A stretch of 64,000 bases of DNA, from the IMG/VR virus record IMGVR_UViG_3300046737_000169, positions 1-64,000 of that record. One strand, written 5' to 3'. Positions 16,101-54,834 of this stretch are shown here, piece by piece. The position numbers were made by a program, and so were the translations under genes. Numbering within the stretch: the first letter of the stretch is position 1; the number at the start of each line of letters is the position of its first letter. Under the pieces are notes generated by a model. The model did not search any database and had not been told where the DNA came from. It was given only the letters and a program-made list of their open reading frames with translations. The stretch is from a virus.

Positions 16101-19100
16101 CGCCAAGGCATACCCTGACATGCGCGCGATCGAGCGCATGGCCGAGACCGAGGACGCCAGCCTCCTCAACGTGACCAAGGGGATGCTCTTCTCGGCACCC
16201 AAGGTTGCCATCTTCCAGGATCTGGTTGACCGCGGCGAGCGCTTCGATCTCGGCATTGGCCAGGACATCATCGACGTACTCAACATCCTCGATCAGATCT
16301 CGCGCGAGGGCAGCAGCATTCCGGAATGGAAAGCCCAGCAGAGCATGTTCGGGCGCGATCCGTTCCTGATCCGGCTCCTCGACATCGTCTCGGAGAACAC
16401 CAGATCGGCCAGGAGAATCTCCGATGTCTTCATAGCCTACGCGGAAGTAGCCGATGCGGCCGGCTCTCCCAAGCAGGAGACGATGTTCGGCCCGCCGGAG
16501 ATTCCCGGCAAGTTGGAGATACTGGAGACTGCGCATGAACGGGCAAAAGAGCAATGGGCGGCCAAGCCTAAACGGCGAGACCCGGCGACCGGCAAACCCA
16601 TCGAAGAAGGCGGGCCCGAGGAACAGGCGAAACCCGCAAGTGATGGAGTGGCTAAAGGACCGGATGAAGACGTACGACCCGAAGTACTTCGGGAAGGACC
16701 AGCCAAACCAGGAGCCCCCGGCGCCCAGCAGCCTGGAGGAGTAGAAAAAGGAAAAGGCGTACGCCGCCGGGATCGGCGGCGAGCTATAGACGCCGATGGC
16801 AAGTGGCAGGATGACACCCTCGCCGATATCCCCGGATTGACCGCGCAGGCAACGTTCAAAGAGCCAGGGGTAAGCGGCGTCGTCTGGGTGAACTACGACG
16901 GGATGCGCGTAGTGGAAGCCGCGCTGAACGAGCCGCCGCTGAACGGCATCGCACTTGACGACGTGGGCGTGGTCGACCTCATGTCGGCGCTGGAAGCGCG
17001 CCTCGCCGAAGACGGCCTGTACGAGGAAGAGCGTGCCAAGCTCCAGGAGTTTCACGACCTACTGAGCAAGCACCGCGAGAAGGTAGGGCCCGGCGCCGGT
17101 GTCGAGATCGTCATGGCCGATCCCACGGTGAATGCAGACTTCATTGGGACGGCCCGCGAAGAGAAGCTGCACGCCGCCCAGCGTCAGGCCAAGCTCTCGG
17201 ACGAGACCATCGAAGACCTGATGCTTGAGCCGGAGTTCCACGAGGCATGGGGATGGCTTGAGGATCACGGCTATCCTGATATTGACGCCAAGGGCGCATT
17301 TGAAGAGATCACCGCCAAGGTGCTCGCCGGCCAGGCAATCGGGCTCACCGAGGCCCAACGCATCAAGGTTGCCAAAGCCTACCGCAATGCGCTGATCGCG
17401 GCGCATGGCGCCGAGGCTATCGTTTTATTCCGATACATCAAGTCAGGTGAAGTGAAGGAGACGTTCCGTGGCAGAGAAGCAAAAGAGGAAGGTGCTGGAC
17501 GCGCCGCCGGAGTTCAGTCGGAAGGCGGTGTCGAACTTCAACGCGGCCCAACTGGCGGCCGCGAGGGCGAAGGAGAAGGGGGAGGACGAGGACGCGGCGT
17601 TCGAGAAGTCGCTGAAAGCGAGTTGGGCGGAAAGCGCGGGGAGCAAACCAAAATCGAATTAGAGGAGCAGCCCGACGACCGGGCGATCCTCCAGGGCGAG
17701 CGTCTGACCGCAGGCTTCAACGCTCCGCTCACGCCGGAAGAGAAGCGCGCCAAGCTCAAGCCCGCCAAGGTCGAGCAGACGAGTATGTTCGGCGGCGAGG
17801 AAGAGCCCGCCGAGCGCCAGGGCCGGCTGTTCGCCAAGCGCCAGCATGAGTTCGAGGCGCCGGGGCGCCTGGTCACCTCGAAGACAGCCGAGGAGTTCGG
17901 CTCCACCGACATCCTGATGCCCGGCGAGGGCTTCCGTTTCCCCGAGGCGGTGAAGCGGGCCGCCTCGCTGATCAGGAAGTACCCAGGCTTCCGCGGCAAA
18001 GGGCTCGCCAATCCCCAGGCGGTCATCGACGACTTCGTCAAGCAGATCCGCGAGAACCTGGTCTGGCTCCACGACAAGTACCGGGAGCAGCACGGCGATC
18101 TGATCAAGCGCGCCAAGCTCTGGTACGACGGCGGGCGCAAGATCGCCGAAGGCTTCGCCAAGGAGGCCGGCGTCAAGCCTCACCAGTCCGCCGCGGTCAT
18201 CGCCGTCCTCTCGCCGAAAAAAGACTGGTTCATGAACGTGGACCTGGCGCGGCGCATTCATCAGTTCATGGGCATCGCCGACACCGTGAAGTGGTCCGAC
18301 AAGATGGACGCCGGGTATCGGGCCATGCAGAAATCCAAGGCCAGGAGCGATGCCAGTTCCATCAAGAAGGCCGCTGCGAAAGGGAAGGTCTTCACTCCCA
18401 GCAAGACACTCCCTAACGCCTACCGGCGGATTCGCGGGAAGGCTTTCAGCGAGATCACCAACGCGCAGGACCGGGCCTACTATCTGCGCATGTGGGACGA
18501 GGGCCACAATAGCCGGGACTTCAATGTCCTGACGCCCGAGGGCGAGTCGCGCGGCGTGGCGCGCAACAAGAAGGACACCGCCAACTCGAAGGTGGTCTGG
18601 GCCGGGTACGACGCGATCCGGAAGGCCATGTCGGTTCTCGAGGACGGTTCGGTGGAGAACATCAGCAAGCGCCTGGGCAACCGGCACAAGGTGCGCTCGT
18701 TCTACAACAACATCCTCGATCCCAACTCGAAGAACCTCCACGTCACCATCGACACCCATGCGGTGTCGGCCGGGCTGCTGCGGCCGCTTGGCGAGAGCGA
18801 CCCGGAGGTCAAGCACAACCTGGGCGCGCTCTCGGTGGTAACCGGCGAGGCTCCGACCTACGGCCTGTTCGCCGAAGGCACCAGGGACGCAGCCAAGGAC
18901 CGCGATCTGATCGCCCGCGAGATGCAGTCGATTACCTGGGAGGCGGTGCGCGGCCTGTTTTCCGGCGGTTTCAAGAACGACGCCAACAGAAAAACGCTTG
19001 CGGCGCTCTGGCGGGACGTTGCGCAAGGTAAAATAACGGCTGATGAAGCGAGAGAGCAAATCTTCAAGCTCGCGGGAGGCATTGATCGACCAGCTTGGGC

Positions 19101-22100
19101 AGATCGACTCCCCGATTTTGGAGGACATGATCGAGGAGGGCGCGCCGCTGACGCGCGCGGAGTACCTGGCGAGGGCGTACCCGGAGCAAGACCCGGAGGA
19201 GCCGATGGACTCCGAGCTAGAGGCCGAGATGCCGGCGCTGTTCGTACACCCGGACCTAAGGAAAGATCTCGGCCTGGACGACAGCGAAGCGTAAGAGGCG
19301 AGCCGGTCCCCACCGGCAAGACGGTCGAGGCCCAGACCCACGCCGCCACCGGCGGCAGATTCCCAGACATCATCCGCTTCTCCGATGACCTGAAGAGGGC
19401 GATGGATGGCCTCGTCTTCCACAGCGAAAGCAAAGCGGACCGGAAGGCCGGCAAGCTCGCGGCTGGTTTTAAAACCGGGACGTGGTACATCAACCGGCGC
19501 GGGCTGAGCCTGCTCGCCAAATGGACAGGCTCCGACATGGTCGCGGGAAGCTCGTTCCCGGCCAGTACGGTCCCCCTTCTCATCAAGGTAATCGACGAGG
19601 ATATTGCGTGGATACAGGCCCGCAAGCCGCTCACCCCGCAGGGCCTCGCGGAGATAACCAGGCTCCGCGACCGGCTGGAAGCGTGGGAGAAACTCCCGAA
19701 GGCGACGCCGGACGAGTCGGTGAACTTCTCCTTCTTTGAGCAGGGCGAAAAACGGCACCCTGCCATGCGCGCGACGATCTCCGAGGAGGCGATACATGGC
19801 TTCCAGCGCCTGGCGGCACTCAAGGACGCAACCATCGACGCCCTGATGGATACCGACCTGTTCAAGCGGGCCAAGCAGACGCTCCAGAGGAACGGTTTGT
19901 ACGCCGGCAAAAACAACCGTTCGGTCCTCATGGAAATCACCGCGAAGATCCTGGCGGCCGATCCGGATTACGCCCCCCATATTCCCGAGTTGTTCCGCCT
20001 GCATATCGTCAAAGCCTACCGGGATGCGATCGTTGCCGAGCACGGCGAGGACGGGATCGTTGTTTTCCGGTACATCAAAAAAGGCAAGGAGAAGGATGTC
20101 TTCCAGGGGCGGATGCAACCGCCCATGCCCACCAGACCCGGTGCGCCTACGACCGGGCCGCGGGCACCGCCGCCGCCGCCACGGCCGTCTCCAACCGCTC
20201 AGCCGGTCTGGACGCCCACGGGCAGGGCGACGCAGGCGCCCTTCGACTTCACCAAGAAAGATCCTTACGCGGGCACTACGCCCTCGCCCACGGCCAAGCC
20301 GAGTACTTCGCCCACGCGCAAGCCGGTGCAGCTTCCGCTGTTCCAGCAACTGAAGAAGGCTGGCCTGTTCGCCAGGATTGTCGAAGCGGGCAGGCGGGCG
20401 GACGAGCGGCTCCGCAAGGCCGGCATCTACTCCGGCGCCACGCTGAGCGCCAACCGGTTCCTCGATCCGAAAGTCATCCGCGACATGGCGATCTCGATCG
20501 CCGGCTCGGTTGCTCAGGGCGTCATCGATGCGAGGAACTTCACCTCGTCGATCACCGATAAGTTCGGCAGCGGCGCCCGGCGCGTAGCTCGTCAGGTGTA
20601 CCGCCGCGCGCAGGGGCAGATGAGGCACGCCGCCTCGACCGGGACGCTGAACGCACGCACGCTCGGACCCAATGCCGTGCAGGCCGCCTCGATCGGCGTG
20701 CCGCCTCCCACGACGGCGGTCGCCACCACCACGCCGCAGCAGCAGGCCGCGGCCGCCCTGGATCAGCGCGAGAAGGAAATCTGGGAGCGGATGATGCCGG
20801 CCACCAAGACCGGCGAAGACAGCCTCCTTGAGAAGGGCAGGAAAGGCTGGCAGAGCTTCAAAGCCTTCTTCGACCGGCAGTACTTCCACCTGGCTCACGG
20901 CGCCAGGTTCGCCGAGCTCCGGCAGCGCCTCAACTTCGTGGCCAAGAGCCAGGGCACGTCCCAGCACAAAGCGGCCCAGGCCATCATCGATCAACTCGAG
21001 AAGCTCGACGAGAAGGAGTACATCCAGTTTTTGAAGGTGGTGGTCTACAACGACATGTGGGCGCGCGTCATGCAGCAGACCGCCGAGGGCACGCCGGTGC
21101 TCGACAAGGATCTGTGGTGGGGCATCAAGGACAAGCACGAGCTAGCCAATGTGCGGGCGAAGGTGCGCGCCGATGCCAGGGCCAATCCCAAGGTGACCGC
21201 CGCGCTCGATATGCGCCAGCAGATGTGGCCCAACATTCGCAAGGAATACATCGCCGCCATGAAGAAGGCCGGCGTCGACGTATCGAAGAGCATCAAGCGC
21301 AAAGACTACTTCCGCCATCGCGTCATGAAGCACCAGGATGCCAAGATGGCGGGCAAGGGCGGCGGCTCGCGCTTCAAGCTGCCTACCGCGCGCGGCTGGC
21401 TGAAGAAGGCCCAGGTCAACATCCACGACTACTCGCTCGACTACATCCGCTCGGAGTTTGAAGTCCTCAACGAGATGATGTACGACACCGCACGGGCCAA
21501 ATTTATCGGCTGGCTGAAGGACGAGAGCGGACACAACATCGACAAGCAACTCATGCGCCAGGCGGCGGCGCACAACAAGGCCGTCATCATGCCGACCTTC
21601 GCGCGGATGGCGCGCTACTACAACCGCAAGAACCGCGGCCGCGGCGTCTCGCTGATGACCGCCGAGTCGATGTACCAGAAGATGATGCGGCTCAAGCCGC
21701 GCGATCCAAGCTGGCGTAAGCGCCTCACCATGCGCCTGGCCGGCGCCGAGTATGTGGGGAGCCTGGAGAAGGCGCTCAATACGTTCGCCAAGGACACCCA
21801 CGACATCTACCGGGCCAACGATAAGGACCACTTCTACCTGGCGGCCACGATCCCTGACGCGCTGGCGCGGGCGATCGCCGCCAACGGCACCGGCCAGGTG
21901 CTCGACACCCAACTGAAGAAGATCCTGGCCAAGGGCCAGCGCCAGGGGCAGATGGTGCTCCCCAAGGAAGTGGTCAAGACCCTGCAGGAGTTCATGCAGG
22001 GGCCGACGAGCGATGTCGGCAAATTCGTCGACTCCGTTTCCAGGTGGCCTCTCAACAAGTGGAAGCAACTCAAACTGATTCATCCGGCAGGCGTCGTCAA

Positions 22101-43685: not shown

Positions 43686-43725
43686 AGTCTCTTCCTCCTC
43701 CAGGGAAGCGAAGCTACGAAACTCA

Positions 43726-43773
43726 AAAGGGCGTCCCGGCAACCATCATCACCGGGGAACGCCCTTTTTTTTT
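43726..43773 (+). terminator. Rho-independent terminator after PEP-CTERM gene
   Basis: GGGCGTCCCGG arm, 12-base loop, CCGGGGAACGCCC arm, followed by T9. One of the best-formed terminators in the window. Confidence 0.9.
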
Positions 43774-43790
43774 ATTTCGAGGTGAAACAC

Positions 43791-45123: not shown

Positions 45124-45187
45124 TTCACCTCTCATTGGGGAAATATCCCAGGAGGAGCGCTCGCAAGCGCCCTCCCTGCGATGCTTA
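45124..45187 (-). promoter_or_regulatory. Intercistronic two-hairpin element A
   Basis: Minus strand: TAAGCATCGCAGGGA (stop codon included), stem GGGCGCT/AGCGCTC with a 4-base loop, then CCTCCTGGGA, loop, TTCCCC and GAGAGGTGAA. It joins the 45,185 gene stop to the 44,850 gene start. One of seven copies with conserved boxes and varying complementary stems. Confidence 0.7.
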
Positions 45188-45355
45188 CCGCATGTTGGCG
45201 ATCATCTGGTTCACCTTGCCTTGCCGCTTGTCCGGCGGCAGCGCGTCCATGATGTGCTGCGCCAGCATGAGCACCGCATGGGCCTCCTGCTTCGACATCT
45301 CGACCGTGATCTTGTCTGTGGTCTTCTTCAACTGGTCCTCGTTTCCCGCGTCCAT
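45185..45355 (-). CDS. Hypothetical helical protein, 56 aa
   Basis: Short helical protein (ITVEMSKQEAHAVLMLAQHI) ending in K-V-N-Q-M-I-A-N-M-R. The start at 45355 is uncertain because no clear GAGGTGA precedes it; a longer frame would overlap the next gene. Its stop is the TAA of element A. Confidence 0.45.
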   Translation of the reverse strand: MDAGNEDQLKKTTDKITVEMSKQEAHAVLMLAQHIMDALPPDKRQGKVNQMIANMR

Positions 45356-45416
45356 CCGGCGATGGATTCGCGCCTGGAGCCGCCCGTCAGGACGGCCCCT
45401 CGGTGCGAGCCCTCCG

Positions 45417-46202
45417 CTACCGCGAGAACGGCTCGACAAAGATCGCGTACTCGCGCCCCTTGCCAATGCCCTCGATGGTCACCGTCTCGCACGCGCCGTC
45501 CATGCCGAACGCTTCCCAGAGTTGCCGGGTCCGCTCGTCGCTCCGGCCTACGGTGAACAGTAAGCTCGGCTCAGGCGCGGGCTCGACCTTGAAGTACATG
45601 CCATCGGCGAACCACTCGGCGAGGTGGGCGTGGACGTGGAACGAGGCGCTGCCGATCTGCATCGTGGAGTACAGCGACACCGGCGCGCCCCCGGTGTCCT
45701 GGACCGGCACGCCGTCGCGGTACTCGTCATCGCCGATAGCCTCCTCGTTGACCTTCCACTCGAAGTCGCTCGCCCTTGAAATGCGCACCACGTCGTCCTC
45801 GTTGTACTCGCCAGCACGCGCACCCGGCTGCGGAATCGGCGAACAGTCCTCACGGTCGCACTCGGACACCTCGCCCGCCCAGTCGCAGTGAGTGCAGTAC
45901 GCGGGCGAGTCCGGCCCCCACTCGCGCGTGTCGTCCTCGACCTCGGTTTCGACATGGTCGATCCCGTGATCGACGATGCGCGCCTCGATGTTCTGCGTCA
46001 CATACAGCTTGTCGGACTTCGCGCACCTGGGGCAGCAGAAACGCGGAGTGTAGATCCCTGCGGCGTCCTTGATTCCGAGCGCCATGCCCGCCCGTTTAGC
46101 CGCCAGCCAATCGTTGTAGCTCATCTGCGTGACGTTGTGCGCCACGTCCGCCTGCCAGTCTTCCACCGGCCACAGAATTTCAGTCGCCTGTTTTACGTCC
46201 AT
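45417..46202 (-). CDS. Hypothetical Zn-ribbon protein, 261 aa
   Basis: GAGGTGAAGTG before ATG 46202. Contains F-C-C-P-R-C-A-K near residue 55 and Y-C-T-H-C-D-W near 100, a probable zinc pair. Acidic middle (ETEVEDDTREWG) and an alpha/beta C-terminal domain (ASFHVHAHLAEWF, LLFTVGRSDE). Function unknown; accessory-region gene. Confidence 0.55.
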   Translation of the reverse strand: MDVKQATEILWPVEDWQADVAHNVTQMSYNDWLAAKRAGMALGIKDAAGIYTPRFCCPRCAKSDKLYVTQNIEARIVDHGIDHVETEVEDDTREWGPDSPAYCTHCDWAGEVSECDREDCSPIPQPGARAGEYNEDDVVRISRASDFEWKVNEEAIGDDEYRDGVPVQDTGGAPVSLYSTMQIGSASFHVHAHLAEWFADGMYFKVEPAPEPSLLFTVGRSDERTRQLWEAFGMDGACETVTIEGIGKGREYAIFVEPFSR

Positions 46203-46366
46203 CACTTCACCTCTTCTTCTTTCTCTTCGCCCAAAAATAGAAACAGCCAGCACTCGGTCCCTTCCACCTCCAGCGTCTCGCCGCTGAGGAGGATCACGCC
46301 GTCGTCGCCTACCCGCTCCTTGACCTTCGCCACAAACCGCCGCAACTCTTTGACCGTGACCGCCAT
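46202..46366 (-). CDS. Hypothetical protein, 54 aa
   Basis: The ATG at 46366 is preceded by GAGGTGAAGTG. It encodes a basic helix (KELRRFVAKVKERVGDDG) and a beta-type end (LEVEGTECWLFLFLG). It overlaps the next ATG by one base (TGATG). Below the usual ORF length cutoff but it has a strong ribosome-binding site. Confidence 0.55.
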   Translation of the reverse strand: MAVTVKELRRFVAKVKERVGDDGVILLSGETLEVEGTECWLFLFLGEEKEEEVK

Positions 46367-46665
46367 CACTTCACCTCAACCTTTCTTCGGTTCTCTAATA
46401 CGTGCGCGATGGCCTGCTCGACCAACGCATCGCCCAGGCGCGCAAAGCGCCGGTCAGCCGCCTGTCGGGCGCGCTTCTCATACTCTTCGCGTGACCACGG
46501 GAGGAACACGGCCCGCCCGCCCAGGCCCTTGGCCTCGATGCGGCACTCTTCGCGCGTCATCAGGTAGCTGAGCCCCGGAGCCTTGAAAGTGTCGCGCCAC
46601 CGGCCCGTGACCGGATCTCGGCGCGAGCCCTGTAGCTTGTACTCAAACACCGGCTTCTTCTTCAT
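46366..46665 (-). CDS. Hypothetical basic protein, 99 aa
   Basis: The ATG at 46665 has GGAGGGGAAGCG upstream; the earlier ATG lies in the next gene. Basic with R-E-E-Y-E-K-R-A-R-Q and a helical C-terminus (DALVEQAIAHVLENRR). Overlaps the next gene at ATG/TGA. Function unknown. Confidence 0.5.
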   Translation of the reverse strand: MKKKPVFEYKLQGSRRDPVTGRWRDTFKAPGLSYLMTREECRIEAKGLGGRAVFLPWSREEYEKRARQAADRRFARLGDALVEQAIAHVLENRRKVEVK

Positions 46666-47207
46666 CGCTTCCCCTCCATCGGACACGCCTCGTCATGCTC
46701 TTCGCCGTACCAGGAGCGGTCGTCGCAGTCGCACACCGGGTCGTAGTCGCTCCAGTGGTTGTCCAGGTGATCGGCCAGATCCTTCGCGCCAGCCGCCCGT
46801 AGCGCGGCGAGGATAGCCGCGTGCTGCTCGCTATCGACCAGCAACTGCCGCACGCCCGTAGGTTCGTCGTCGCCCTCCTCTTCGTCGTTGGCCTTGTCCG
46901 CGCAACCGGGGCAAAGCTCGCGGTCCTCAGAGTCCCATCCCCAGTCGCCTGAGTCGGACGGGTTCACGTCCACGCGCTTGCACTCTTCGCACACGCGGAT
47001 GCCCGCCTCGTCGTTGCCGATCCAGACCCACGCCTGTACGTAGGCCCCGATATCGTCCTCGCCGTCGCGCGACACCGGCGCTTCGTCGTCCACCTCCAGC
47101 GTGCCTTCGTCGTAGTGAACGCGGATGGCCGCTGCCCGGTAGGCGTTGTCCAGGAGTTCTTTGTTGTCCTCGTTCATCGGGCTCGCATCACGAACCTTCT
47201 TTGCCAT
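46662..47207 (-). CDS. Acidic Zn-binding hypothetical protein, 181 aa
   Basis: Start ATG 47207 with GGAGGTGAGGTG. Very acidic. Contains C-E-E-C-K-R near residue 75, C-P-G-C-A-D near 98 and a C-terminal C-D-C-D/C-P-M, suggesting two zinc sites. The sequence E-V-D-D-E-A-P-V-S-R is typical of the acidic accessory proteins in this block. Function unknown. Confidence 0.5.
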   Translation of the reverse strand: MAKKVRDASPMNEDNKELLDNAYRAAAIRVHYDEGTLEVDDEAPVSRDGEDDIGAYVQAWVWIGNDEAGIRVCEECKRVDVNPSDSGDWGWDSEDRELCPGCADKANDEEEGDDEPTGVRQLLVDSEQHAAILAALRAAGAKDLADHLDNHWSDYDPVCDCDDRSWYGEEHDEACPMEGKR

Positions 47208-47401
47208 CACCTCACCTCCCTGGCGCGGGCGCGCTTGCGCTCGCGCATCCAGATATCGTCGTCGCGCCGGTCGTTGTCGCCAACAAGCCAGCCCATCATC
47301 CACATGCTCTGCTCGATCTTGGAGAGCGTAGCGGGCGCTTCGCAGGGAAGTCCCCGCAGGCCCGCCGCGCGCCCGTCATCGGAGACGTTAGGCTTTGCCA
47401 T
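47207..47401 (-). CDS. Small RMF/CrpP-like protein, 64 aa
   Basis: Contains A-A-G-L-R-G-L-P-C-E-A-P-A, then M-W-M-M-G-W-L-V-G-D-N-D-R-R, the G-x(n)-W-x-x-G-W layout of ribosome-modulation-factor/CrpP-type small proteins. Basic tail. A ribosome- or enzyme-binding role is conceivable but only the pattern is visible. Confidence 0.45.
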   Translation of the reverse strand: MAKPNVSDDGRAAGLRGLPCEAPATLSKIEQSMWMMGWLVGDNDRRDDDIWMRERKRARAREVR

Positions 47402-47885
47402 CGCCCTTCACCTCCATGTCAAGCTCCAGCCGCTCGCACAGGTCTTCGAGCGAAATGCCTTCGCAGATGTCGTCGTTTTCGAGTTCGACAACATCGCCGT
47501 CTTCGCCGAAAGCATCCTGCAACTCCTGCTCTAGTTCGTGCAGCGCATCCCAGTAGTGCGACTGCGCCGCCTGCGCCCGTTCGAGTGAATCGCGCACCTC
47601 GCGGTGTGGGTCCGGCTCCGGCTCTTCTTCTGCCGCTGGCCCCTGGTCTGAGAACACCTCGAAGCGCCCGCGCCAGTCTTCCATGAACTCGCCCAGGTTG
47701 TCGTAGATATCCGCCTCGCCGGGTTCGTCGCCCACCTGGACCTGCATACTCGCGCCGCTGTTCTCGCGCAGGTAGACCGGCAACCGGCGCGGCTCTGACT
47801 TGAGCTTGCCGTGCGCGGCGATGTCCGGGGGCAATGCCCCGGCATCGACTATGCCGATTTGAAACGTCACTTTCTTCGCCGCCAT
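47388..47885 (-). CDS. Acidic hypothetical protein, 165 aa
   Basis: ATG 47885 after GAGGTGAAGTG. Beta-rich N-terminus (VTFQIGIVDAGALPPD) and a long acidic helical C-terminus (EELQDAFGEDGDVVELE type). No cysteine cluster. DNA-mimic-like acidity is worth noting, but no homology is evident. Confidence 0.5.
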   Translation of the reverse strand: MAAKKVTFQIGIVDAGALPPDIAAHGKLKSEPRRLPVYLRENSGASMQVQVGDEPGEADIYDNLGEFMEDWRGRFEVFSDQGPAAEEEPEPDPHREVRDSLERAQAAQSHYWDALHELEQELQDAFGEDGDVVELENDDICEGISLEDLCERLELDMEVKGDGKA

Positions 47886-48166
47886 CACTTCACCTCCTCG
47901 AAGCGGATGCGGAACTTCCGCCCGTCCTTCGTTGTGATCTCTTGGCCGTCCTCGAACTCCAGAGAGTTGATGAACATGAGCGTCCCCGGATGGTCAGGGT
48001 CTTCCTCGTCCCCCGGATACTCCAGTCCGTTCACCTCGGCCTCGCGCTCGGCCAGCCGCCGCGCCGCCCCAAATTCGTCGTCGTCCGGCTCGGCCTCCAT
48101 GAGTGCGCCACTCAAGCAGTCCTCATCGGCTCCGTACTCGCGCCACTGCAAAATCGTCAATACCAT
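47885..48166 (-). CDS. Acidic hypothetical protein, 93 aa
   Basis: ATG 48166 was chosen because GAGGTGA lies eight bases before it; an in-frame GTG is too close. N-terminal helix, then a strongly acidic middle (EAEPDDDEFG, GDEEDPDH) and a beta-type end (DGRKFRIRFEEV). First gene behind element B. Confidence 0.5.
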   Translation of the reverse strand: MVLTILQWREYGADEDCLSGALMEAEPDDDEFGAARRLAEREAEVNGLEYPGDEEDPDHPGTLMFINSLEFEDGQEITTKDGRKFRIRFEEVK

Positions 48167-48174
48167 TACCGCTT

Positions 48175-48241
48175 TCACCTCGGGAAGTGTCCCAGGAGTG
48201 GCAGCCGCCCGTGCTGCTGCCCTCCCTGCGATGCTTTCCTA
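48175..48241 (-). promoter_or_regulatory. Intercistronic two-hairpin element B
   Basis: Minus strand: TAGGAAAGCATCGCAGGGA, stem GGCAGC/GCTGCC around a 10-base loop that contains the block-wide repeat ACGGGCGGCTG, then CTCCTGGGA, ACACT, TCCC and GAGGTGAA. Spans the stop at 48,239 to the start at 48,166. Confidence 0.7.
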
Positions 48242-48811
48242 GACCGTCACCGGCACAAACTTCCAGTCCTGGCCCAGCGAGTCCTTCATGTCTTCCAGGC
48301 ACGCATAGTCATCGTCGTCACCGGCCCCCTCCATCGCCACGCGCACCAGACCGTCCGAGAGCCGGTAGACCTTGAACGCAGTTCCCTCGCCGCTCTCAAT
48401 CGAGCCCAGGTGCTCACCCGGATACGGCTGCGGCTCGTCGAACACAAGCACCGGCGGGTCTTCCCACGGCCCCTCGGAATCCCAGTAGTCAACCACCTTG
48501 TCAACCTCGGACATGAGCGGCTCAAGCGCCATGTGGTAGTCGTTGATTACGTCGTAGCCGGAGTTGCCGTAAATCAGGACCACTTCGCCCAGGAGCGCCA
48601 GCCGCCCGTCCGCGTCGCGCGTGGCATCCACATACAGGTGGTCGTCGTCGGTCGTCATGAGCGCGCGCATGATCTCGTTCGCCTTGCGTGATTGCCACAA
48701 GACAATCTCTTCGCCGTTGTGGACGCTGATGTTGTGGCCCCTGGCGAGCGCAGTCTGCACAAACGTGCCGATCACATGCCGCTCGATAAACTGCCTGATT
48801 CTCACTGTCAC
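48239..48811 (-). CDS. Hypothetical acidic protein, 190 aa
   Basis: GTG 48811 has GAGGTGAAGAA upstream and overlaps the previous stop (GTGA). N-terminal R-Q-F-I-E-R-H-V-I-G-T-F-V, then beta strands (HLYVDATRDADGRLALLG, VVLIYG). Pro-rich acidic middle, and a C-terminal D-W-K-F-V-P-V-T-V. Function unknown. Confidence 0.55.
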   Translation of the reverse strand: MTVRIRQFIERHVIGTFVQTALARGHNISVHNGEEIVLWQSRKANEIMRALMTTDDDHLYVDATRDADGRLALLGEVVLIYGNSGYDVINDYHMALEPLMSEVDKVVDYWDSEGPWEDPPVLVFDEPQPYPGEHLGSIESGEGTAFKVYRLSDGLVRVAMEGAGDDDDYACLEDMKDSLGQDWKFVPVTV

Positions 48812-49188
48812 TTCTTCACCTCTTCTTTCGCTTCCTGATTCAGCTTCGCTTCGAGCGCCAACTCGGCCTGGACTACCCGCCTGTACTCGCGCGTGGGCTC
48901 CCAGATGCCGCAGAGGCACTGGAGCAGGTTGTCTCCGGCTGAGTCCCACAGTTCGCAGTAGTAGGCTTTATCCTCCGGCTGAATGATGCCGCTGGGCCGG
49001 TCCAGGTGCGCGTCCTTGTCTATGTCCCACTCGAAATACCAGTCCTGATCGAGCGCGAACCGCTCAGCCGCCGCGAGCTTCTCAGCGGTGCGCACTTTGC
49101 CTTGCTCGGGCGTCTCGCGCGTGTCGTCCCAGGAGTAGCCCGCGTTGTCATAGAAGAACGCCGCCGCGCCCTTCAGAATCGTTGCCAT
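48808..49188 (-). CDS. Hypothetical protein, 126 aa
   Basis: Start ATG 49188 preceded by GAGGTGAAAG. Aromatic-rich (AGYSWDDTRETPEQ, LDQDWYFEWDIDKDAH) with C-L-C-G near residue 92 and a helical C-terminus. First gene of the unit behind the 49.2-kb promoter. Confidence 0.5.
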   Translation of the reverse strand: MATILKGAAAFFYDNAGYSWDDTRETPEQGKVRTAEKLAAAERFALDQDWYFEWDIDKDAHLDRPSGIIQPEDKAYYCELWDSAGDNLLQCLCGIWEPTREYRRVVQAELALEAKLNQEAKEEVKK

Positions 49189-49223
49189 CTTTCACCTCGC
49201 TGCGGGGAATGCCCGCTTACTAG

Positions 49224-49252
49224 ATTGTGCCAGGATCAATAGTCGCGTGCAA
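49224..49252 (-). promoter_or_regulatory. Minus-strand promoter TTGCAC-17-CACAAT
   Basis: Minus: TTGCAC (49247-49252), 17-base spacer, CACAAT (49224-49229). AATAGT...ACTATT inverted repeat overlaps the -35 region, and TTGATCCTGGCA (shared with the 55.15-kb leader) overlaps the spacer. A GCGGG/CCCGC hairpin and GAGGTGAAAG follow before ATG 49,188. Confidence 0.6.
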
Positions 49253-49407
49253 CTATTTTCCTGGGATATTCGGAAAGAATTAGCCGCCTGTCAGCCGCCT
49301 GTCAAAGTTCAGCCGCCCGTGCCGGCAGCCGCCTGTCGCCGCGGGCTGCCGGCGCGAGCGCCGCGCCCTGGCGCGGGACCGGCGCGGGACCGGCGCGCCC
49401 TGGCGCG
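49253..49407. other. GC-rich repeats and strong hairpin, no gene
   Basis: Holds four copies of CAGCCGCC(T/C)GT-type repeats (two with slight variation), the hairpin GCCGGCAGCC...GGCTGCCGGC (49321-49353), and direct repeats of GGCGCGGGACC (49,371-49,400). Probably terminator or spacer DNA after the 49,408 gene. Confidence 0.5.
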
Positions 49408-49584
49408 CTACCCGATGCGCGCCTCGATGGTCGAGAGCAGCAAGTCCGCCTGGATCTGCTGCGTCCAGAACGCCTGGGCAATGCGCGGCGTTTCCCAGGC
49501 CGTCTCGGCGCTCTTCTGGTAGATGTCTATCGCCACGCGCAGCGCGCCCTGAACGACGCGCAATTGTTCTTCGGTCAAGTTCAT
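49408..49584 (-). CDS. Hypothetical helical protein, 58 aa
   Basis: ATG 49584 with GAGGTGAACCG upstream. Single helical protein (EEQLRVVQGALRVAIDIYQK) with E-T-P-R-I-A-Q-A-F-W. Behind element C. No family recognised. Confidence 0.5.
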   Translation of the reverse strand: MNLTEEQLRVVQGALRVAIDIYQKSAETAWETPRIAQAFWTQQIQADLLLSTIEARIG

Positions 49585-49587
49585 CGG

Positions 49588-49649
49588 TTCACCTCGGGGA
49601 AAGTATCCCAGGAGGGGCACTCACCTGAGTGCCATCCCTGCGATGCTTA
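49588..49649 (-). promoter_or_regulatory. Intercistronic two-hairpin element C
   Basis: Minus strand: TAAGCATCGCAGGGA, nearly perfect stem TGGCACTCA/TGAGTGCC with a 2-base loop, then CTCCTGGGATACTTTCCCC and GAGGTGAA. Shortest copy. The TAA is the stop of the 49,647 gene. Confidence 0.75.
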
Positions 49650-50378
49650 TGCCGCCGCCTGCGCGCCCGCGATCTGGATGAGCGCCGCCTGCACCCGCTT
49701 CCGGCCCGCGCCGTGTGCGGCGAAGCCGATCACGATGCGCTCTTCGCGCAGCCGCGCGTCGTCCCAGCACAACCGGCAGCGGATGCACTGCGTGCCGTGG
49801 GTATCGTGCGGGCAGGGCAGCACGGTGAATCCAGCCGCATGTTTCCATGCCTTCGCGCCCGCGTGCGCGGCCACGACGAGCGCCGCCGCCCAACCTTGGG
49901 AGAGTGCCTGCGTCACGTCCGCCGCCGTCTCACACGACGCCAGAACCGACACCGCGCCCCAGGAGGCGCGCTTGACCTTGCGCCATGCGTGGGTGTAGGT
50001 CCAGGCCCGCCGCCGGTCGCGCCGCATGAAACGCTCAGCCGCCCGTGCGACGATGCGCGCCGCGCCGTTGGTCCGGCAGTCGCCCACGATATGGAGCCGC
50101 AAGTCATGCAGGCCCGACAACCGGTCAATCTCGCGCGCCTCTTGCCGCGCGATCAGGAGCGGGTCAACCTGGGCGCGCCGCCCGCCCGCCGCCGCGTTCA
50201 GCTTCGCCGTCTGCATCCCGACGCGGTCCTCTTCGCCGTAGCAGCCGCCGCCGTCAAAGAACGCGCAGCCTGGGTCACATGACGGCTGAGCCGCGCTCGT
50301 ATTCGAGCACGGCCCTGTTTTCGAGTTCCCGCTAATCTCTACCGCTTTGGCGAGCGGCTCGCGTAACGTGGGATTCAC
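49647..50378 (-). CDS. Cys-rich phage protein (gp88/DUF7227-like), 243 aa
   Basis: GTG 50378 overlaps the upstream stop (GTGA). N-terminal S-G-N-S-K-T-G-P-C-S-N-T, then Q-P-S-C-D-P-G-C-A-F-F-D-G-G-G-C-Y. This is the C-P-x-x-C...G-C-Y pattern of phage DUF7227/gp88-like proteins. Later L-C-W-D-D and C-I-R-C-R-L-C cysteines may form a second cluster. Function of the family is unknown to me. Confidence 0.55.
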   Translation of the reverse strand: MNPTLREPLAKAVEISGNSKTGPCSNTSAAQPSCDPGCAFFDGGGCYGEEDRVGMQTAKLNAAAGGRRAQVDPLLIARQEAREIDRLSGLHDLRLHIVGDCRTNGAARIVARAAERFMRRDRRRAWTYTHAWRKVKRASWGAVSVLASCETAADVTQALSQGWAAALVVAAHAGAKAWKHAAGFTVLPCPHDTHGTQCIRCRLCWDDARLREERIVIGFAAHGAGRKRVQAALIQIAGAQAAA

Positions 50379-50626
50379 CGCGCCGCCTCCGCTGGCCGCT
50401 TGTCCCCGGCGAACATCGGCGCGGGCGGAATCCAGCCAAGCTGGGTTAGCACGGCTTCGAGTTCTTCGCAGTCCTCGTCCGTTGAGCACAAGCCCGCCGC
50501 CCATGCCTCACGCGGTCCGCGCGACTCATGCCCGTCAGCCTGCCCGCGCGCCCACCAGCCGCCCGCCGCGCCCAGGCCCGCGACTACCGCCGCGAGCGCG
50601 GCAACCTCAGCCACGCGCCGCCTCAT
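50375..50626 (-). CDS. Membrane-anchored small protein, 83 aa
   Basis: A single N-terminal hydrophobic segment (VAEVAALAAVVAGLGAAGGWW) followed by a soluble Cys-containing part (CSTDEDCEELEAVL). ATGA overlap with the next gene upstream. Could be a spanin-like or exported protein; no other lysis genes lie near, so uncertain. Confidence 0.5.
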   Translation of the reverse strand: MRRRVAEVAALAAVVAGLGAAGGWWARGQADGHESRGPREAWAAGLCSTDEDCEELEAVLTQLGWIPPAPMFAGDKRPAEAAR

Positions 50627-50877
50627 CGGCCCGCCCCTTCCTTCGGAAAGTCGGTGTAGGCGTCGTCAAAGGCGCGCTTGATGACCATGCGCCCGTAGAA
50701 TGGCCCATCCGTCTCGTCGGGCTGGTCCGCCTGCGCCCAGTGCATCAAGTCCTGAATCAGGTCGCGCGCCGTGTCGCCGTCGATCGGGCGCGTCTCATTC
50801 AGGTGCAGGGCATACGCCGTAAGCACCGCCCGCGCGCGCGCCGCGCAGGCTTCGTTCTTCTTCGTCAATACGTACAT
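50623..50877 (-). CDS. Hypothetical protein, 84 aa
   Basis: ATG 50877 behind GAGGTGAACCG (element D). Helical (LTAYALHLNET, DLIQDLMHWAQ) with a D-G-P-F-Y-G-R-M-V-I-K motif. Overlaps the next gene (ATGA). No family recognised. Confidence 0.5.
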   Translation of the reverse strand: MYVLTKKNEACAARARAVLTAYALHLNETRPIDGDTARDLIQDLMHWAQADQPDETDGPFYGRMVIKRAFDDAYTDFPKEGAGR

Positions 50878-50880
50878 CGG

Positions 50881-50956
50881 TTCACCTCGAAAGAATTGGG
50901 AGAAGCCCAGGAGGGACGCGAGCCGCCACGCTCGCGCCATCCCTGCGGTGCTCTCA
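50881..50956 (-). promoter_or_regulatory. Intercistronic two-hairpin element D
   Basis: Minus strand: TGAGAGCACCGCAGGGA, stem GCGCGAGC/GCTCGCG with a 6-7-base loop, CTCCTGGGCTTCTCCC, spacer ATTCTTTC, GAGGTGAA. Ends at start 50,877 and holds the TGA of the 50,954 gene. Confidence 0.7.
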
Positions 50957-51253
50957 AATCGTGCAGCAGCCGCAGCAGGGCGCGTCTTCGCACCGGCCCG
51001 CCTTGTTGCGGGTAAACACCGCGCCACTGCTGAACCGGATCACCGACACTGGCGCGTAAGCATCCCGCCAGTACGGCGAGCGCTGCCCCTTCTTCGCCCG
51101 CGCCCGCCTGGGCGCGCCCGCCTCAACGAGCGCCCGCGCCTCATCGGCCCGCGCATCGGGCACGCGCCACGCTTTGAGCGCCGCATCCCAGTCGCCGCCC
51201 ATAGCGCGCAACTCGGCCCGGTGCGGGTACGTGTTTCCCGTAATCATTGCCAT
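50954..51253 (-). CDS. Phage 'GGxWD' protein, 99 aa
   Basis: N-terminal T-G-N-T-Y-P-H-R-A-E-L-R-A-M-G-G-D-W-D-A-A-L-K-A-W-R-V-P, a recurring phage domain seen in DNA-metabolism proteins (T-Y-P-x-x-x-x-L-K-A-L-G-x-x-W-D-A). Basic middle and a Cys-rich end (CEDAPCCGCC). Start ATG 51253 with GGAGGA upstream. Confidence 0.6.
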   Translation of the reverse strand: MAMITGNTYPHRAELRAMGGDWDAALKAWRVPDARADEARALVEAGAPRRARAKKGQRSPYWRDAYAPVSVIRFSSGAVFTRNKAGRCEDAPCCGCCTI

Positions 51254-51256
51254 TGT

Positions 51257-51451
51257 CTAGTCCTCCTCATCAATGGGCTCATCGGCCCAGTAGTTCGCAT
51301 CAGTGAAAATTTCCGGCCTGTACTGGGCGCGTTTCTTCGCCTCGCACCGGCTGCACACGTAGCCGCAGGCAATGCCGCGTGCGTCATAGAGCACGTAGCG
51401 CGTCTGGCCGGAGCCGCACCCGCACGGGCGTATCGGAGGGAGCCAACTCAT
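51257..51451 (-). CDS. Zinc-ribbon phage protein, 64 aa
   Basis: Pattern C-G-C-G-S-G-Q-T-R-Y-V-L-Y-D-A-R-G-I-A-C-G-Y-V-C-S-R-C, then Y-R-P-E-I-F-T-D-A-N-Y-W-A-D-E-P. It matches a common phage Zn-ribbon family (C-x2-C ... C-x2-C with a Y-R-P-E-I-F-x-D tail). Probably binds zinc; role unknown. Confidence 0.7.
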   Translation of the reverse strand: MSWLPPIRPCGCGSGQTRYVLYDARGIACGYVCSRCEAKKRAQYRPEIFTDANYWADEPIDEED

Positions 51452-51681
51452 GACCGGCCCCCCTTCTTTCTGGCCGCGCGTTCTTCCCGCTCGGCGCGTG
51501 CGAGCAACTTGCTGGCTAGGTCGTAAACGGCGTCATAGGGAACCGCGAGCCTGCGCCGCGTCCCCTTCAATCGCAGTTCAATATGTGATGGGTGCAACTC
51601 GACCAGGAGGGCGCGTGTGCGCCCCTGGTCCCTTTTGAGCGTCGCCGTCTCCCGGCGGACCGGCTTATCGAGGCGCGTCAT
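51448..51681 (-). CDS. Hypothetical basic protein, 77 aa
   Basis: ATG 51681; the stop overlaps the next start (ATGA). Basic N-terminus, then beta-alpha (LLVELHPSHIELRLKG, AVPYDAVYDLASKLLAR). Appears to be a small dimerising nucleic-acid binder, but no family motif is seen. Confidence 0.5.
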   Translation of the reverse strand: MTRLDKPVRRETATLKRDQGRTRALLVELHPSHIELRLKGTRRRLAVPYDAVYDLASKLLARAEREERAARKKGGRS

Positions 51682-51848
51682 TACAGCGGCTCCGATTCGA
51701 TCAGGATTACATCGTTGACCCGGAGCCCGGTCACGCGCCGCGTTTCGCCGTCCGTCTCCACGTACACCGGGCGCGAGCCCGCGCCCTGGACCTGAGCGGT
51801 CCAGAGCAGCTTGGCTAGCTCCGCGCCTGAGAGCGTGTCGATTCTCAC
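51681..51848 (-). CDS. Hypothetical protein, 55 aa
   Basis: GTG 51848 overlapping the previous stop (GTGA) and TAATG with the next gene. Short beta-rich sequence (RPVYVETDGETRRVTGLRV) with an N-terminal helix. Below the ORF length cutoff but consistent with the dense operon. Confidence 0.5.
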   Translation of the reverse strand: MRIDTLSGAELAKLLWTAQVQGAGSRPVYVETDGETRRVTGLRVNDVILIESEPL

Positions 51849-52102
51849 CGTACACCGTCCGGCAGTACAGTCACCTCACCGGCGAGCGTGCCGGGGTAGC
51901 GGTCGCCCGCCGCCATGCGCCCGCCTGGGGACACCGTCACCAGTCCGCGCGCAATGTCCAGCGCGTGATGTACGCTCGGGCCTGCCTCGAAACGGAACCG
52001 CTGCGAGCCGCCGCCGTACCTGGGTTCAAAAGTTTTCTCGACCGTGACGCCCCAACGGCCATCAATCAGGTCAAGATGAACGGACACGATTTGGTTTTCC
52101 AT
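51845..52102 (-). CDS. Hypothetical beta-rich protein, 85 aa
   Basis: ATG 52102 with GAGGTGAAGCG upstream. Beta-rich: IVSVHLDLIDGRWGVTVEKTFEP, then SQRFRFEAG. Probably a small beta-barrel or beta-sandwich. No family recognised. Confidence 0.5.
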   Translation of the reverse strand: MENQIVSVHLDLIDGRWGVTVEKTFEPRYGGGSQRFRFEAGPSVHHALDIARGLVTVSPGGRMAAGDRYPGTLAGEVTVLPDGVR

Positions 52103-52115
52103 CGCTTCACCTCTT

Positions 52116-52295
52116 CTAGAACAACTTCGGCTGCGGGTCCGATACCGGAGCCGCGAACAAACCGCCCTGCTCGACGCGAGCGCGCCGCAGCTTGCGGCGC
52201 TTCTCTTCCGGCGTCAAGGGACAGTCAAAACCAGCCGTCAACTGCTCGCCCAGGAGGCGCGCTTGGTCGTCCGGCTGCTCTTCTATCTCGATCAC
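52116..52295 (-). CDS. Standalone paralogue of a giant-protein module, 59 aa
   Basis: GTG 52295 behind GAGGTGAATC. Sequence I-E-I-E-E-Q-P-D-D-Q-A-R-L-L-G-E-Q-L-T-A-G-F, then C-P-L-T-P-E-E-K-R-R-K-L and V-E-Q-G. It aligns at about 60% identity over 45 residues with residues 1,507-1,553 of the giant polyvalent protein. It ends in Q-P-K-L-F, a QxxLF beta-clamp-type motif. First gene behind the 52.3-kb promoter. Likely to bind a shared partner, such as the sliding clamp. Confidence 0.65.
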   Translation of the reverse strand: MIEIEEQPDDQARLLGEQLTAGFDCPLTPEEKRRKLRRARVEQGGLFAAPVSDPQPKLF

Positions 52296-52311
52296 GATTC
52301 ACCTCTCTTTG

Positions 52312-52340
52312 ACTATACGCCAGTAACAACGATTTGGTTA
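52312..52340 (-). promoter_or_regulatory. Minus-strand promoter TAACCA-17-TATAGT
   Basis: Minus: TAACCA (52335-52340), 17-base spacer, TATAGT (52312-52317), then GAGAGGTGAATC and GTG 52,295. A GTAAC...GTTAC inverted repeat overlaps the -35 box. The same -35/-10 pair with the same spacer occurs at 55,196-55,224. Confidence 0.6.
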
Positions 52341-52360
52341 CTAAATCTTGCGAAATATTT

Positions 52361-52729
52361 TCAGGACTCGGCTTCAACCGTGTGGCGCTCGACTTCCTCC
52401 CCCACAAACGGCTCGCGCGGGTCCGCGTGGACCGTGACCGGCCCGCCGCCGCGCCCGTCGTCGTAGGTCAGCGACACCGCGCCCAGGCACCGGCGCAGGC
52501 CCTCGGCTGCCGCCTCCTGGTCGTTGATCCGCCGCAGGACGATGTTGTACACCTCGGACTCGCCGTCCGAGAGCGTGTGCTTTTCCACCGCCAACCGGCT
52601 GAGGTAGTCCCCGGCCTCGTCTTCGATGTAGATCATTTCCAGCGGAGTGGTGCGGGCGAGCAGTTCTAGCTCGCGCGCAAGGTCCGCCGCCGTCATCACC
52701 ACGGCTGTATGCGTTCTGGTCATCATCAC
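52361..52729 (-). CDS. Hypothetical protein, 122 aa
   Basis: ATG 52729 with GAGGTGAAACGTG upstream (element E). N-terminal helical part (ADLARELELLARTTPLE) and mixed alpha/beta C-terminus with an acidic loop (EDEAGDYLSRL). No family recognised. Confidence 0.5.
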   Translation of the reverse strand: MMMTRTHTAVVMTAADLARELELLARTTPLEMIYIEDEAGDYLSRLAVEKHTLSDGESEVYNIVLRRINDQEAAAEGLRRCLGAVSLTYDDGRGGGPVTVHADPREPFVGEEVERHTVEAES

Positions 52730-52731
52730 GT

Positions 52732-52815
52732 TTCACCTCGAAAAGAATTACGGGAAAGAATCCCACCGGCGCGGGCGCGCCCGGTCACACGCGCCCGCCC
52801 TCTGCGACTCTCTTA
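52732..52815 (-). promoter_or_regulatory. Intercistronic two-hairpin element E (variant)
   Basis: Minus strand: TAAGAGAGTCGCAGAGG, stem GGGCGCG/CGCGCCC, GGTGGGATTCTTTCCC, spacer and CGAGGTGAA. The most divergent copy: box 1 has GAGG for GGGA and box 2 is GGTGGGA for CCTGGGA. The two-hairpin plan is kept. Confidence 0.6.
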
Positions 52816-53118
52816 CCGCTCGCCCGCCAGACACTTGCGCTGGCCTTCGCGCACCGACTCGACAATGGCGCGATGGCGCGCCGTCTCCCAGTCCGCCTCA
52901 TAGCCCGCCATGACCGGCGAGGCCGCCAATGGCCGCACGCTGGACAGTTCGACCCACTGGGCGCCGTCGCCCGCCACCGGCGCCACTTGCAGCCGCTGCT
53001 TACCCCAGGACGCCTTGACATCGATCACCCGGCAGTCAATCCACAGTTCACCGGCGCGCAACTGGCACAACTCGCCCACTGCGCCAATCATCCCCGTTGC
53101 CGTGTAGCGCGTCGTCAC
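52813..53118 (-). CDS. Hypothetical beta-rich protein, 101 aa
   Basis: GTG 53118 overlaps the previous stop. Beta-barrel-like: E-L-C-Q-L-R-A-G-E-L-W-I-D-C-R-V-I-D-V-K, then R-L-Q-V-A-P-V. C-terminal amphipathic helix. Could be OB/SH3-like, but no family recognised. Confidence 0.5.
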   Translation of the reverse strand: MTTRYTATGMIGAVGELCQLRAGELWIDCRVIDVKASWGKQRLQVAPVAGDGAQWVELSSVRPLAASPVMAGYEADWETARHRAIVESVREGQRKCLAGER

Positions 53119-53627
53119 TAGCTCACCTCCGGCTTAATCAGATCGCCGCGCCCGTTGATGCGGATTCCCTTGGACGCGCCCAACTCGGGCTCGACCGGGC
53201 ACTGGATCGCCGCCGCGAGCCGCTCGGCCTTCCGGCGCTTGGCCACGTTCCAGCGCTTGACCACCGGCGGGAATCCCGGCTTCTCTTTGAGCGGGGATAT
53301 CTCACAGCCGAACTCGCACCCGATCCCGTTGCGCTGCCAGTCCAGGTCTTCCGGCTTAGCCTCGTACCATTTCGGCAACGTGACCGGGCGCGACATGATC
53401 CCCAGGTAGCCGTCCGACTCGAAGTAACCCATCACCACCGCCGGTCCGATGTCGTTCATCTCGATGCGGACCATCTGCCCGACTTCGGGCAGCGGGTTCT
53501 CACCGGACCACTTCAGCGCAATCCCGCGCTCATTGTGGAACTCGCGCATGGGCGAGCCCTCATCGTCAATCAGCCGCCCCGTGGCCATTGGCCGGGGGAT
53601 AAAAAACCGCTCTTTCATGCGTTCCAT
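53118..53627 (-). CDS. Hypothetical protein, 169 aa
   Basis: The start at ATG 53627 follows GAGGTGAAAGGTCAGATT; a longer frame reaches into the next gene's region. N-terminal F-I-P-R-P-M-A-T-G-R, beta strands (MVRIEMNDIGPAVVMGYFE), and C-E-F-G-C-E near residue 110. Basic C-terminus. Function unknown. Confidence 0.5.
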   Translation of the reverse strand: MERMKERFFIPRPMATGRLIDDEGSPMREFHNERGIALKWSGENPLPEVGQMVRIEMNDIGPAVVMGYFESDGYLGIMSRPVTLPKWYEAKPEDLDWQRNGIGCEFGCEISPLKEKPGFPPVVKRWNVAKRRKAERLAAAIQCPVEPELGASKGIRINGRGDLIKPEVS

Positions 53628-53637
53628 AATCTGACCT

Positions 53638-53716
53638 TTCACCTCGACAAGAATTTCGGGAAGTCTCCCAGGAGTGGCGCGCGCGATCCGCGCGCCCTCC
53701 CTGCGGTACTTTCCTA
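53638..53716 (-). promoter_or_regulatory. Intercistronic two-hairpin element F
   Basis: Minus strand: TAGGAAAGTACCGCAGGGA, perfect stem GGCGCGCG/CGCGCGCC with GATC loop, CTCCTGGGAGACTTCCC, spacer with GAATTC-like AT run, CGAGGTGAA. The TAG is the stop of the 53,714 gene. Confidence 0.75.
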
Positions 53717-53896
53717 TTCGCCCGCCCGCGCCCAGAAGCGCACCGTACCCATGCGGTCCAACCACTTGATTTGCGCCCGGTAGGACTCGCCGTCCGCCAG
53801 ATACGCCGCGACGTTGAACAGGATCGACGCGCCCACCCCAGGCGCAACCGTGTCGATCCGCTGCAAGATGATCCCGTATGGGCTGAGGCGCGCCAT
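53714..53896 (-). CDS. Hypothetical protein, 60 aa
   Basis: ATG 53896, TAATG-coupled to the next gene. Sequence L-S-P-Y-G-I-I-L-Q-R-I-D-T-V-A-P-G-V-G-A-S-I-L-F-N, with an Ala/Gly hydrophobic centre. No family recognised; possibly membrane-associated. Confidence 0.45.
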   Translation of the reverse strand: MARLSPYGIILQRIDTVAPGVGASILFNVAAYLADGESYRAQIKWLDRMGTVRFWARAGE

Positions 53897-54510
53897 TAGA
53901 AGAGCCTCCCTTGATCGCCCGTCTCGACCGGCGCAGCCTGGGCCGCCTCGGCGAGCTTGACCGCCTCCGCGCCCGCCTTCGAGAGCACCCGCGCCAAGAA
54001 CCCCTCGATCCGGGGAATCTCTTTGTTGAGGTACGCCACCTTGCGGTCGATATCGTCCTGGCACCGCTTGACCCAGACCGCGCCGCCCTCGCCGCGCCGG
54101 TCCAAGCTGCGCTCATGGTCGCCGTTGCGCTCCACGTCGTACACCGGATGAAACAGCCAACTGGACTCGGTGAAAATATCCTTCCCGCCCGCGTCCGCGA
54201 TGAAATAGAGCCCGCTCCCGAAATACTCGCGCCCGCGCGGCATGGCCTCCACCGGCCCGGTGAGAATCTCCAGGTAGTTCCGGTATTTCACCAGCAACTT
54301 CGCATTCTTGCGGTAGAGCGTGCCGAGCGTGGGCGTCGCCTGGAGTATCCGGTCGATACAATCGAGCCCGTACTGCTGAACCAAGCCGTCCTTGTACGTC
54401 ACGCGCGCCACATGCTTAATGCCCTGGCTGCACCGGTCGCAGCACTGAACCGGGGACGCCGTGTAGTAGTACACCGAGCGCACCGCCGTCGTTCCTAAAA
54501 TCTGAGTCAT
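53896..54510 (-). CDS. Cys-containing hypothetical protein, 204 aa
   Basis: ATG 54510 with GAGGTGAGGAAGG upstream. N-terminal C-C-D-R-C-S-Q-G-I and Y-G-L-D-C-I-D, a possible zinc site; long helical C-terminus. Ends in Q-G-R-L-F, a QxxLF sliding-clamp motif like those at 52,116 and in the giant protein. Likely to meet host DNA polymerase clamp; function otherwise unknown. Confidence 0.5.
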   Translation of the reverse strand: MTQILGTTAVRSVYYYTASPVQCCDRCSQGIKHVARVTYKDGLVQQYGLDCIDRILQATPTLGTLYRKNAKLLVKYRNYLEILTGPVEAMPRGREYFGSGLYFIADAGGKDIFTESSWLFHPVYDVERNGDHERSLDRRGEGGAVWVKRCQDDIDRKVAYLNKEIPRIEGFLARVLSKAGAEAVKLAEAAQAAPVETGDQGRLF

Positions 54511-54519
54511 AATTCCTTC

Positions 54520-54594
54520 CTCACCTCGAGTTTTCGGGAAGTCTCCCAGGAGGGAGGCGCGCCCACTCGCCGCGCCCCATCCCTGCGGTACTTA
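54520..54594 (-). promoter_or_regulatory. Intercistronic two-hairpin element G
   Basis: Minus strand: TAAGTACCGCAGGGA, stem GGGGCGCG/CGCGCCTCC (loop GCGAGTGG), CTCCTGGGAGACTTCCC, GAAAACTC, GAGGTGAG. Embeds the TAA stop of the 54,592 gene and the ribosome-binding site of the 53,896 gene. Confidence 0.7.
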
Positions 54595-54834
54595 CCGGAT
54601 GCCCGCGAGCCGCTCGGCGATTTCGCGCTCGCGCTCGGCGAGCACTTCCTTGGCCCGCACAACCTGCTCAGCCGCTACCCATACCTGCACGCGCGGGGGA
54701 GGCAAACGCTTGTCCCTCCACTTGGGATGCTCCATCCGCGAATAGATCCCCGCTGCAATCAGCGAATCGAGCAGGCCCGCCGCCCGCATCCCCGTCGCCG
54801 TCTCGGCAATCAACGTCATCGTCGCCTGCGCCAT
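54592..54834 (-). CDS. Hypothetical protein, 80 aa
   Basis: Helical protein; N-terminal M-T-L-I-A-E-T-A-T-G-M-R-A-A-G-L-L-D-S-L and a basic/aromatic centre (EHPKWRDKRLPPPRVQVWV). C-terminal heptad helix (KEVLAEREREIAERL). Directly precedes element G. No family recognised. Confidence 0.5.
   Translation of the reverse strand: MAQATMTLIAETATGMRAAGLLDSLIAAGIYSRMEHPKWRDKRLPPPRVQVWVAAEQVVRAKEVLAEREREIAERLAGIR

Follow-up and report, generated by a model that had tools for sequence, protein, structure and literature searches.

A family of intercistronic RNA hairpins with hypervariable stems in an unclassified group of uncultured phages

The leftward accessory block of an uncultured tailed phage carries, at seven junctions between its genes, a repeated RNA element whose central stem is certain. 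This element is a new family of a known sort, the intercistronic phage hairpin, and the combination of a hypervariable stem with conserved flanks makes it unusual. As to its role, we give an even chance to cis-acting punctuation of the leftward polycistronic mRNA, in which the elements would act through processing by a host enzyme of the RNase III type, through end protection, or through both.

The window (the whole stretch of DNA analysed, 64,000 nucleotides) belongs to a 73,764-base IMG/VR virus record in which the large terminase, a tail fibre and other phage families were recognised. No close isolate phage was found, terminase identity being below 27% among the matches listed; a DNA-level search for isolate relatives gave no match, and a search of bacterial genomes with the terminase (TerL) found neither a host nor a prophage. 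Besides the relative G001, the terminase alignment takes in another ten IMG/VR contigs, which are about 84-85% identical, and the carriers of the element are an unclassified group of related uncultured phages. The genes of the leftward block that holds the elements are small, and known domains are absent from almost all of them. The structural half contains one uninterrupted reading frame of 3546 aa, running from 13132 to 23772 on the plus strand.

All seven minus-strand junctions of the original prediction were found in place, and the shared GAGGTGA precedes the next start in 7/7 copies. The leader overlaps the upstream stop codon or lies at most 4 nt from it. It reads AGCATCGCAGGGA in the copies placed at 45124, 48175 and 49588, AGCACCGCAGGGA in that at 50881 and AGTACCGCAGGGA in those at 53638 and 54520; the leader of the copy at 52732, described earlier as degenerate, proved to be so on reading. 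The 3' box CTCCTGGGA-N3-TTCCC is exact in four copies, with one mismatch at 49588 and three at 50881, and a scan allowing up to three mismatches returned 17 matches against 7.4 +/- 3.2 expected, a number reached in 0/100 shuffles.

Read in the minus-strand direction, copy 1 (45125..45190) has the stop TAA, the leader AAGCATCGC, the variable stem GGCGCT/AGCGCT, then GGGATATTTCCC and the SD GAGGTGA, and is orthologous to the copy at 64240 in G001. The same leader is found in copy 2 (48175..48242; stop TAG, stem GGCAGC/GCTGCC, GGGACACTTCCC, SD), the downstream gene family of which also follows an element copy in G008, and in copy 3 (49589..49650; stop TAA, stem GGCACTCA/TGAGTGCC, GGGATACTTTCCC, SD), for which the minimum-energy and centroid folds are both the long hairpin described below. 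Copy 4 (50882..50957) has the stop TGA, the leader AGAGCACCGC, which pairs with CTTCTC, and the stem GGCGCGAGC/GCTCGCGTC. Copy 5 (52733..52815) is divergent, with the stop TAA, the stem GGGCGCG/CGCGCCC and an SD; its leader AGAGTC is a perfect complement of GATTCT. Copy 6 (53639..53717) has the stop TAG, the leader AAGTACCGC, the stem GGCGCGCG/CGCGCGCC, GGGAGACTTCCC and a long spacer before the SD, and copy 7 (54521..54596) has its stop TAA within the hairpin base (CCGGTAAGT), followed by the stem GGGGCGCG/CGCGCCTC, GGGAGACTTCCC and the SD. Two lesser features lie on the same strand: a decayed relic of a second type, type B (45358..45424; leader GGCTCGCA, a stem and CGCGAATCCATCGC, with no SD after it), and a possible truncated copy (49192..49218; GGGCATTCCCC, then GAGGTGA), a weak match with E = 0.03. 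The 219-nt gap that holds the latter also contains a promoter-like TTGCAC...CACAAT stretch (49190-49260, minus).

The window holds other repeated or structured sequences. Between 42584 and 50565 on the minus strand the motif CAGGCGGCTG/CGGGCGGCTG is over-represented, with 23 occurrences of MVRGCGGCTR in the window against 7.2 expected; nearly all are on the minus strand in the block, in genes as well as gaps, and four fall within 49281-49335. Similar runs of CAGACGGCTGAC occur in G001 (L018 2984-3407), and the motif is possibly a protein-binding or Chi-like site. On the plus strand at 43700-43785, a strong stem rich in GC, with nine T after it (GGGGAACGCCCTTTTTTTTT), resembles an intrinsic terminator and lies directly 5' of a GAGGTGA and gene.

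The covariance-model search proposed with the original prediction was carried out, and the corresponding block of the relatives holds strong copies. A first model (R1) served only as a sequence-led search and was replaced by R2. The curated set comprises 42 copies from seven related phage genomes, of which 36 are type A (GGGA...TCCC) and six are type B (GCGA...TCGC, with other letters); the latter include the window relic, and intact type B copies occur in G001, G004 and G008. All curated copies share one strand within the leftward accessory block, each extending from the stop codon of the gene upstream to the next gene's GAGGTGA, and strong model matches were found on that strand of the block in all records covering the region and nowhere else in them. 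A model built from two genomes, those of the window phage and G001, recovered the unused copies of G008 and G004, with matches in a third genome reaching down to E = 1.7e-10. Loose-box pattern scans of IMG/VR yielded mostly chance contigs, the sole new one being L070; a genome-collection match in a Spirochaetaceae MAG (L080) was stemless on reading and is apparently due to chance. In G005, one derivative element (L033:1401-1479, minus) has its leader absorbed into a stem of perfect complementarity, TCGCGCCAGAA/TTCTGGCGCGA, with TTTTT after it, and is terminator-like. The loops CTGATTCGGACAG, CTGAGTGTGACAG and CTCTGTCGCAGCAGAG recur at different junctions and in different genomes (copies of L034, L033, L036 and L018), a pattern that suggests exchange of hairpin tops between copies.

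Pairing cognate and permuted arms bears out the claim that the arms change from copy to copy and still match each other: cognate main-stem arms gave -20.7 kcal/mol against -12.2 kcal/mol for permuted ones (z = -17; 0/2000). Covariation in the main stem, calculated on a MAFFT alignment that was not fitted to the structure, was 0.324 against 0.179 in shuffled data (0/500), and sliding the partner position lowered it. Both results support a selected RNA structure with compensatory changes, as originally suggested. The plan of two hairpins survives in part, as the main stem stands but a separate second hairpin does not appear as the main fold. Minimum-energy folding gives one long hairpin in 37 of the 42 copies, with a median of 22 pairs, and one long irregular hairpin is most likely the main fold predicted for the element. 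In this hairpin the strand previously assigned to hairpin 2 is paired with bases of the stop codon and those immediately following it, such that the leader (for example GGGAAGCAUC or GGUAAGAGAGUC, and in type B GCGGAAGGU) takes up the entire post-stem strand, TCCC or TCGC included.

Several calculations bear on this lower helix. Pairing of the leader gains 7.5 kcal/mol on average over an unpaired leader; predicted pairs between the leader and the 3' strand number 4.8, compared with 1.3 when leaders are shuffled (p = 5e-11); and own leaders fit the 3' strand better than those of other copies, within genomes too (z = -3.1 to -3.9). Column by column, the lower helix taken alone shows weak covariation, with 74/500 shuffles as high and one column pair having 20/33 cells unpaired, and we therefore regard the predicted helix of leader and 3' strand as probable rather than proven. 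Predicted GGGA/TCCC pairs number 0.71 with the leader present and 3.13 with the leader removed, so that folding models make GGGA/TCCC a fallback pairing for when the leader is unavailable. The hairpin 2 strands change together between types A and B (GGGA/UCCC, CGCGA/UCGCG, UGCGA/UCGCA). The RNAalifold run proposed earlier, made on the MAFFT alignment, found hairpin 2 but did not recover the variable stems, because these do not align. A three-way junction seen in some folds, in which the leader pairs with the SD, gave no cognate signal, is rarer than with shuffled leaders (0.33 against 0.97) and was rejected.

The intercistronic location that had been claimed is confirmed in the wider set: counting reading frames of at least 40 codons and measuring from stop to stem base, 39 of the 42 copies have an upstream stop 3-20 nt before the stem, and in several the stop codon itself lies within the hairpin base. 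The SD follows the 3' arm by 0-16 nt in all copies except the relic. The suggestion that translation is controlled through pairing of CCT with AGG in the ribosome-binding site was not upheld. Predicted SD pairing was 0.42 with the leader and 0.42 without it, against 0.51 with shuffled leaders; it does not depend on the element, and SD sequestration is thus unsupported. By the same predictions, the hallmark of a switch that sequesters the ribosome-binding site, an SD that alternates between a paired and a free state, is absent, and the element is predicted to leave the SD no less free than expected by chance.

With a stop codon, an irregular hairpin of about two helical turns and an open SD, repeated within one block, the elements show a T7-like combination, and we therefore take punctuation as the most likely role. 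Each element would be an RNA hairpin between cistrons, about 65-80 nt long with some 22 base pairs; the 5' arm would start at or just after the upstream stop and the 3' arm would end 0-16 nt ahead of the next SD. As in the T7 early region, the double-stranded arm could serve as a host RNase III-type processing signal, as an end-protecting barrier, or as both, and the message would be cut or stabilised as smaller units, each opening with a strong, free ribosome-binding site. After a cut, or with a terminating ribosome on the leader, the released GGGA...TCCC strand may fold as a small 5' hairpin. No RNase III gene was found when these phages were searched for one, so the host enzyme would be needed. 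A processing joint remains the best-fitting of the functions first suggested for the junctions. The near-invariant GGGA/TCCC strand of type A is not required by a plain processing hairpin and counts against this reading.

The main rival, to which we assign roughly half that likelihood, is translational insulation: a hairpin after the stop would block ribosome scanning or re-initiation, and a free, strong SD would allow independent initiation downstream, in a block whose other genes mostly overlap or adjoin one another and are probably coupled. It draws its standing from the report that predicted structure immediately 3' of a stop codon correlates negatively with translational coupling (PMC12548453), and it agrees with a hairpin base 3-20 nt past the stop and with an SD that is kept free. 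However, insulation leaves unexplained both an arm length that stays close to 22 nt and the strong conservation of the 3' strand, and it does not exclude processing; punctuation and insulation may act together.

A translation-sensing switch, in which a ribosome at the upstream stop covers the leader, the 3' strand refolds as GGGA/TCCC and two exclusive folds report upstream translation, is unlikely. On the basis of ribosome footprint size, a terminating ribosome could reach the leader, and both the predicted shift of the 3' strand to hairpin 2 on leader removal and the covariation of hairpin 2 between types A and B would suit such a switch. Nevertheless, the equal SD exposure in the two states leaves it without a visible output, hairpin 2 is invariant within type A, and its co-change between types is also explained by the long hairpin. 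Slightly less likely again is a combination of this switch with punctuation, in which the terminating ribosome would flip the 22-bp hairpin, whether nuclease-cut or protected, to the two-hairpin form, and processing at the boundary would depend on upstream translation.

We consider it improbable that the elements are mobile or recombination joints that shuffle gene modules, as proposed for T4-type PeSL cassettes and as the original prediction also allowed. Between relatives the genes of the block are heavily reordered, and a single gene family is found after the element in four genomes, with differing genes ahead of the element, but adjacencies that span an element are conserved no less often (3/14) than the others in the block (17/57; p = 0.74, a small sample), and we therefore make no claim that recombination is driven by the elements. 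Moreover, no promoter was found at the elements, and the hypervariable stems give only short stretches of identity. Least probable is a DNA-level site (promoter, operator or intrinsic terminator) in place of an RNA: the conserved boxes are short and three weak terminator-like calls overlap hairpin 2, but the arms change in a compensatory manner, promoter-like sites are not at elements, terminator-like sites number 11 against 7.4 expected, and orientation is fixed relative to the stop codon and SD.

Among known RNA families, Rfam gave no match at the gathering score in the window and none at E <= 1 in the block, so that this is an RNA motif family without an Rfam match, restricted in these searches to one phage group. 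In layout it resembles both PeSL and SAS/ESAS, but it lacks features that define them. PeSL of T4-like phages are described as composite promoter-terminator motifs that mediate shuffling, and are likewise repeated regulatory stem-loops between the genes of a plastic region (cited in PMC4503421). The present elements differ in having no promoter found and no breakpoint enrichment: no sigma70-type site, the type of early promoter covered, lies at any element, and the adjacency comparison above, on its small sample, shows no concentration of breakpoints. As to a terminator stem-loop, three weak calls fall in hairpin 2, a number no greater than chance in the region. The SAS/ESAS of cluster K mycobacteriophages are repeated, same-orientation elements just 5' of the starts of non-structural genes, some of them imperfect inverted repeats with a variable spacer (PMC3203893), and in repetition, orientation and position they are alike. 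SAS, in contrast, is a fixed 13-bp box, GGGATAGGAGCCC, which with up to two mismatches occurs before starts twice against 2.4 expected, neither time at an element; the arms of ESAS keep a consensus sequence, whereas the arms here vary freely and pair.

The closest likeness is to the R sites of T7, the early-region transcript of which receives five RNase III cuts (PMC4858673). These are irregular hairpins in the gaps of one polycistronic phage transcript, near the upstream stop and before the next SD; when the T7 early gaps were folded, three of five formed hairpins of 21-26 bp in this stop-to-SD setting, and two of five, folded as excised, had no such hairpin. The corresponding features here are the position between stop codon and next SD (39/42) and the irregular hairpin, which spans about two helical turns (37/42 folds; median 22 bp). 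Unlike the T7 sites, the elements have hypervariable stems with conserved flanks on both sides and more numerous copies, and cleavage is suggested by analogy; a search of the phage collection with 53600-54620, which holds two copies, gave no match, and no sequence similarity to the T7 sites was seen. T7 is the textbook case for the question of intercistronic hairpins, and the present family adds dozens of naturally occurring compensatory versions of a single hairpin, with a constant spacing to the stop and start codons. These provide a ready-made mutational series for the role of such hairpins in phage operons, whether processing, protection or insulation, as well as natural parts for insulating ribosome-binding sites.
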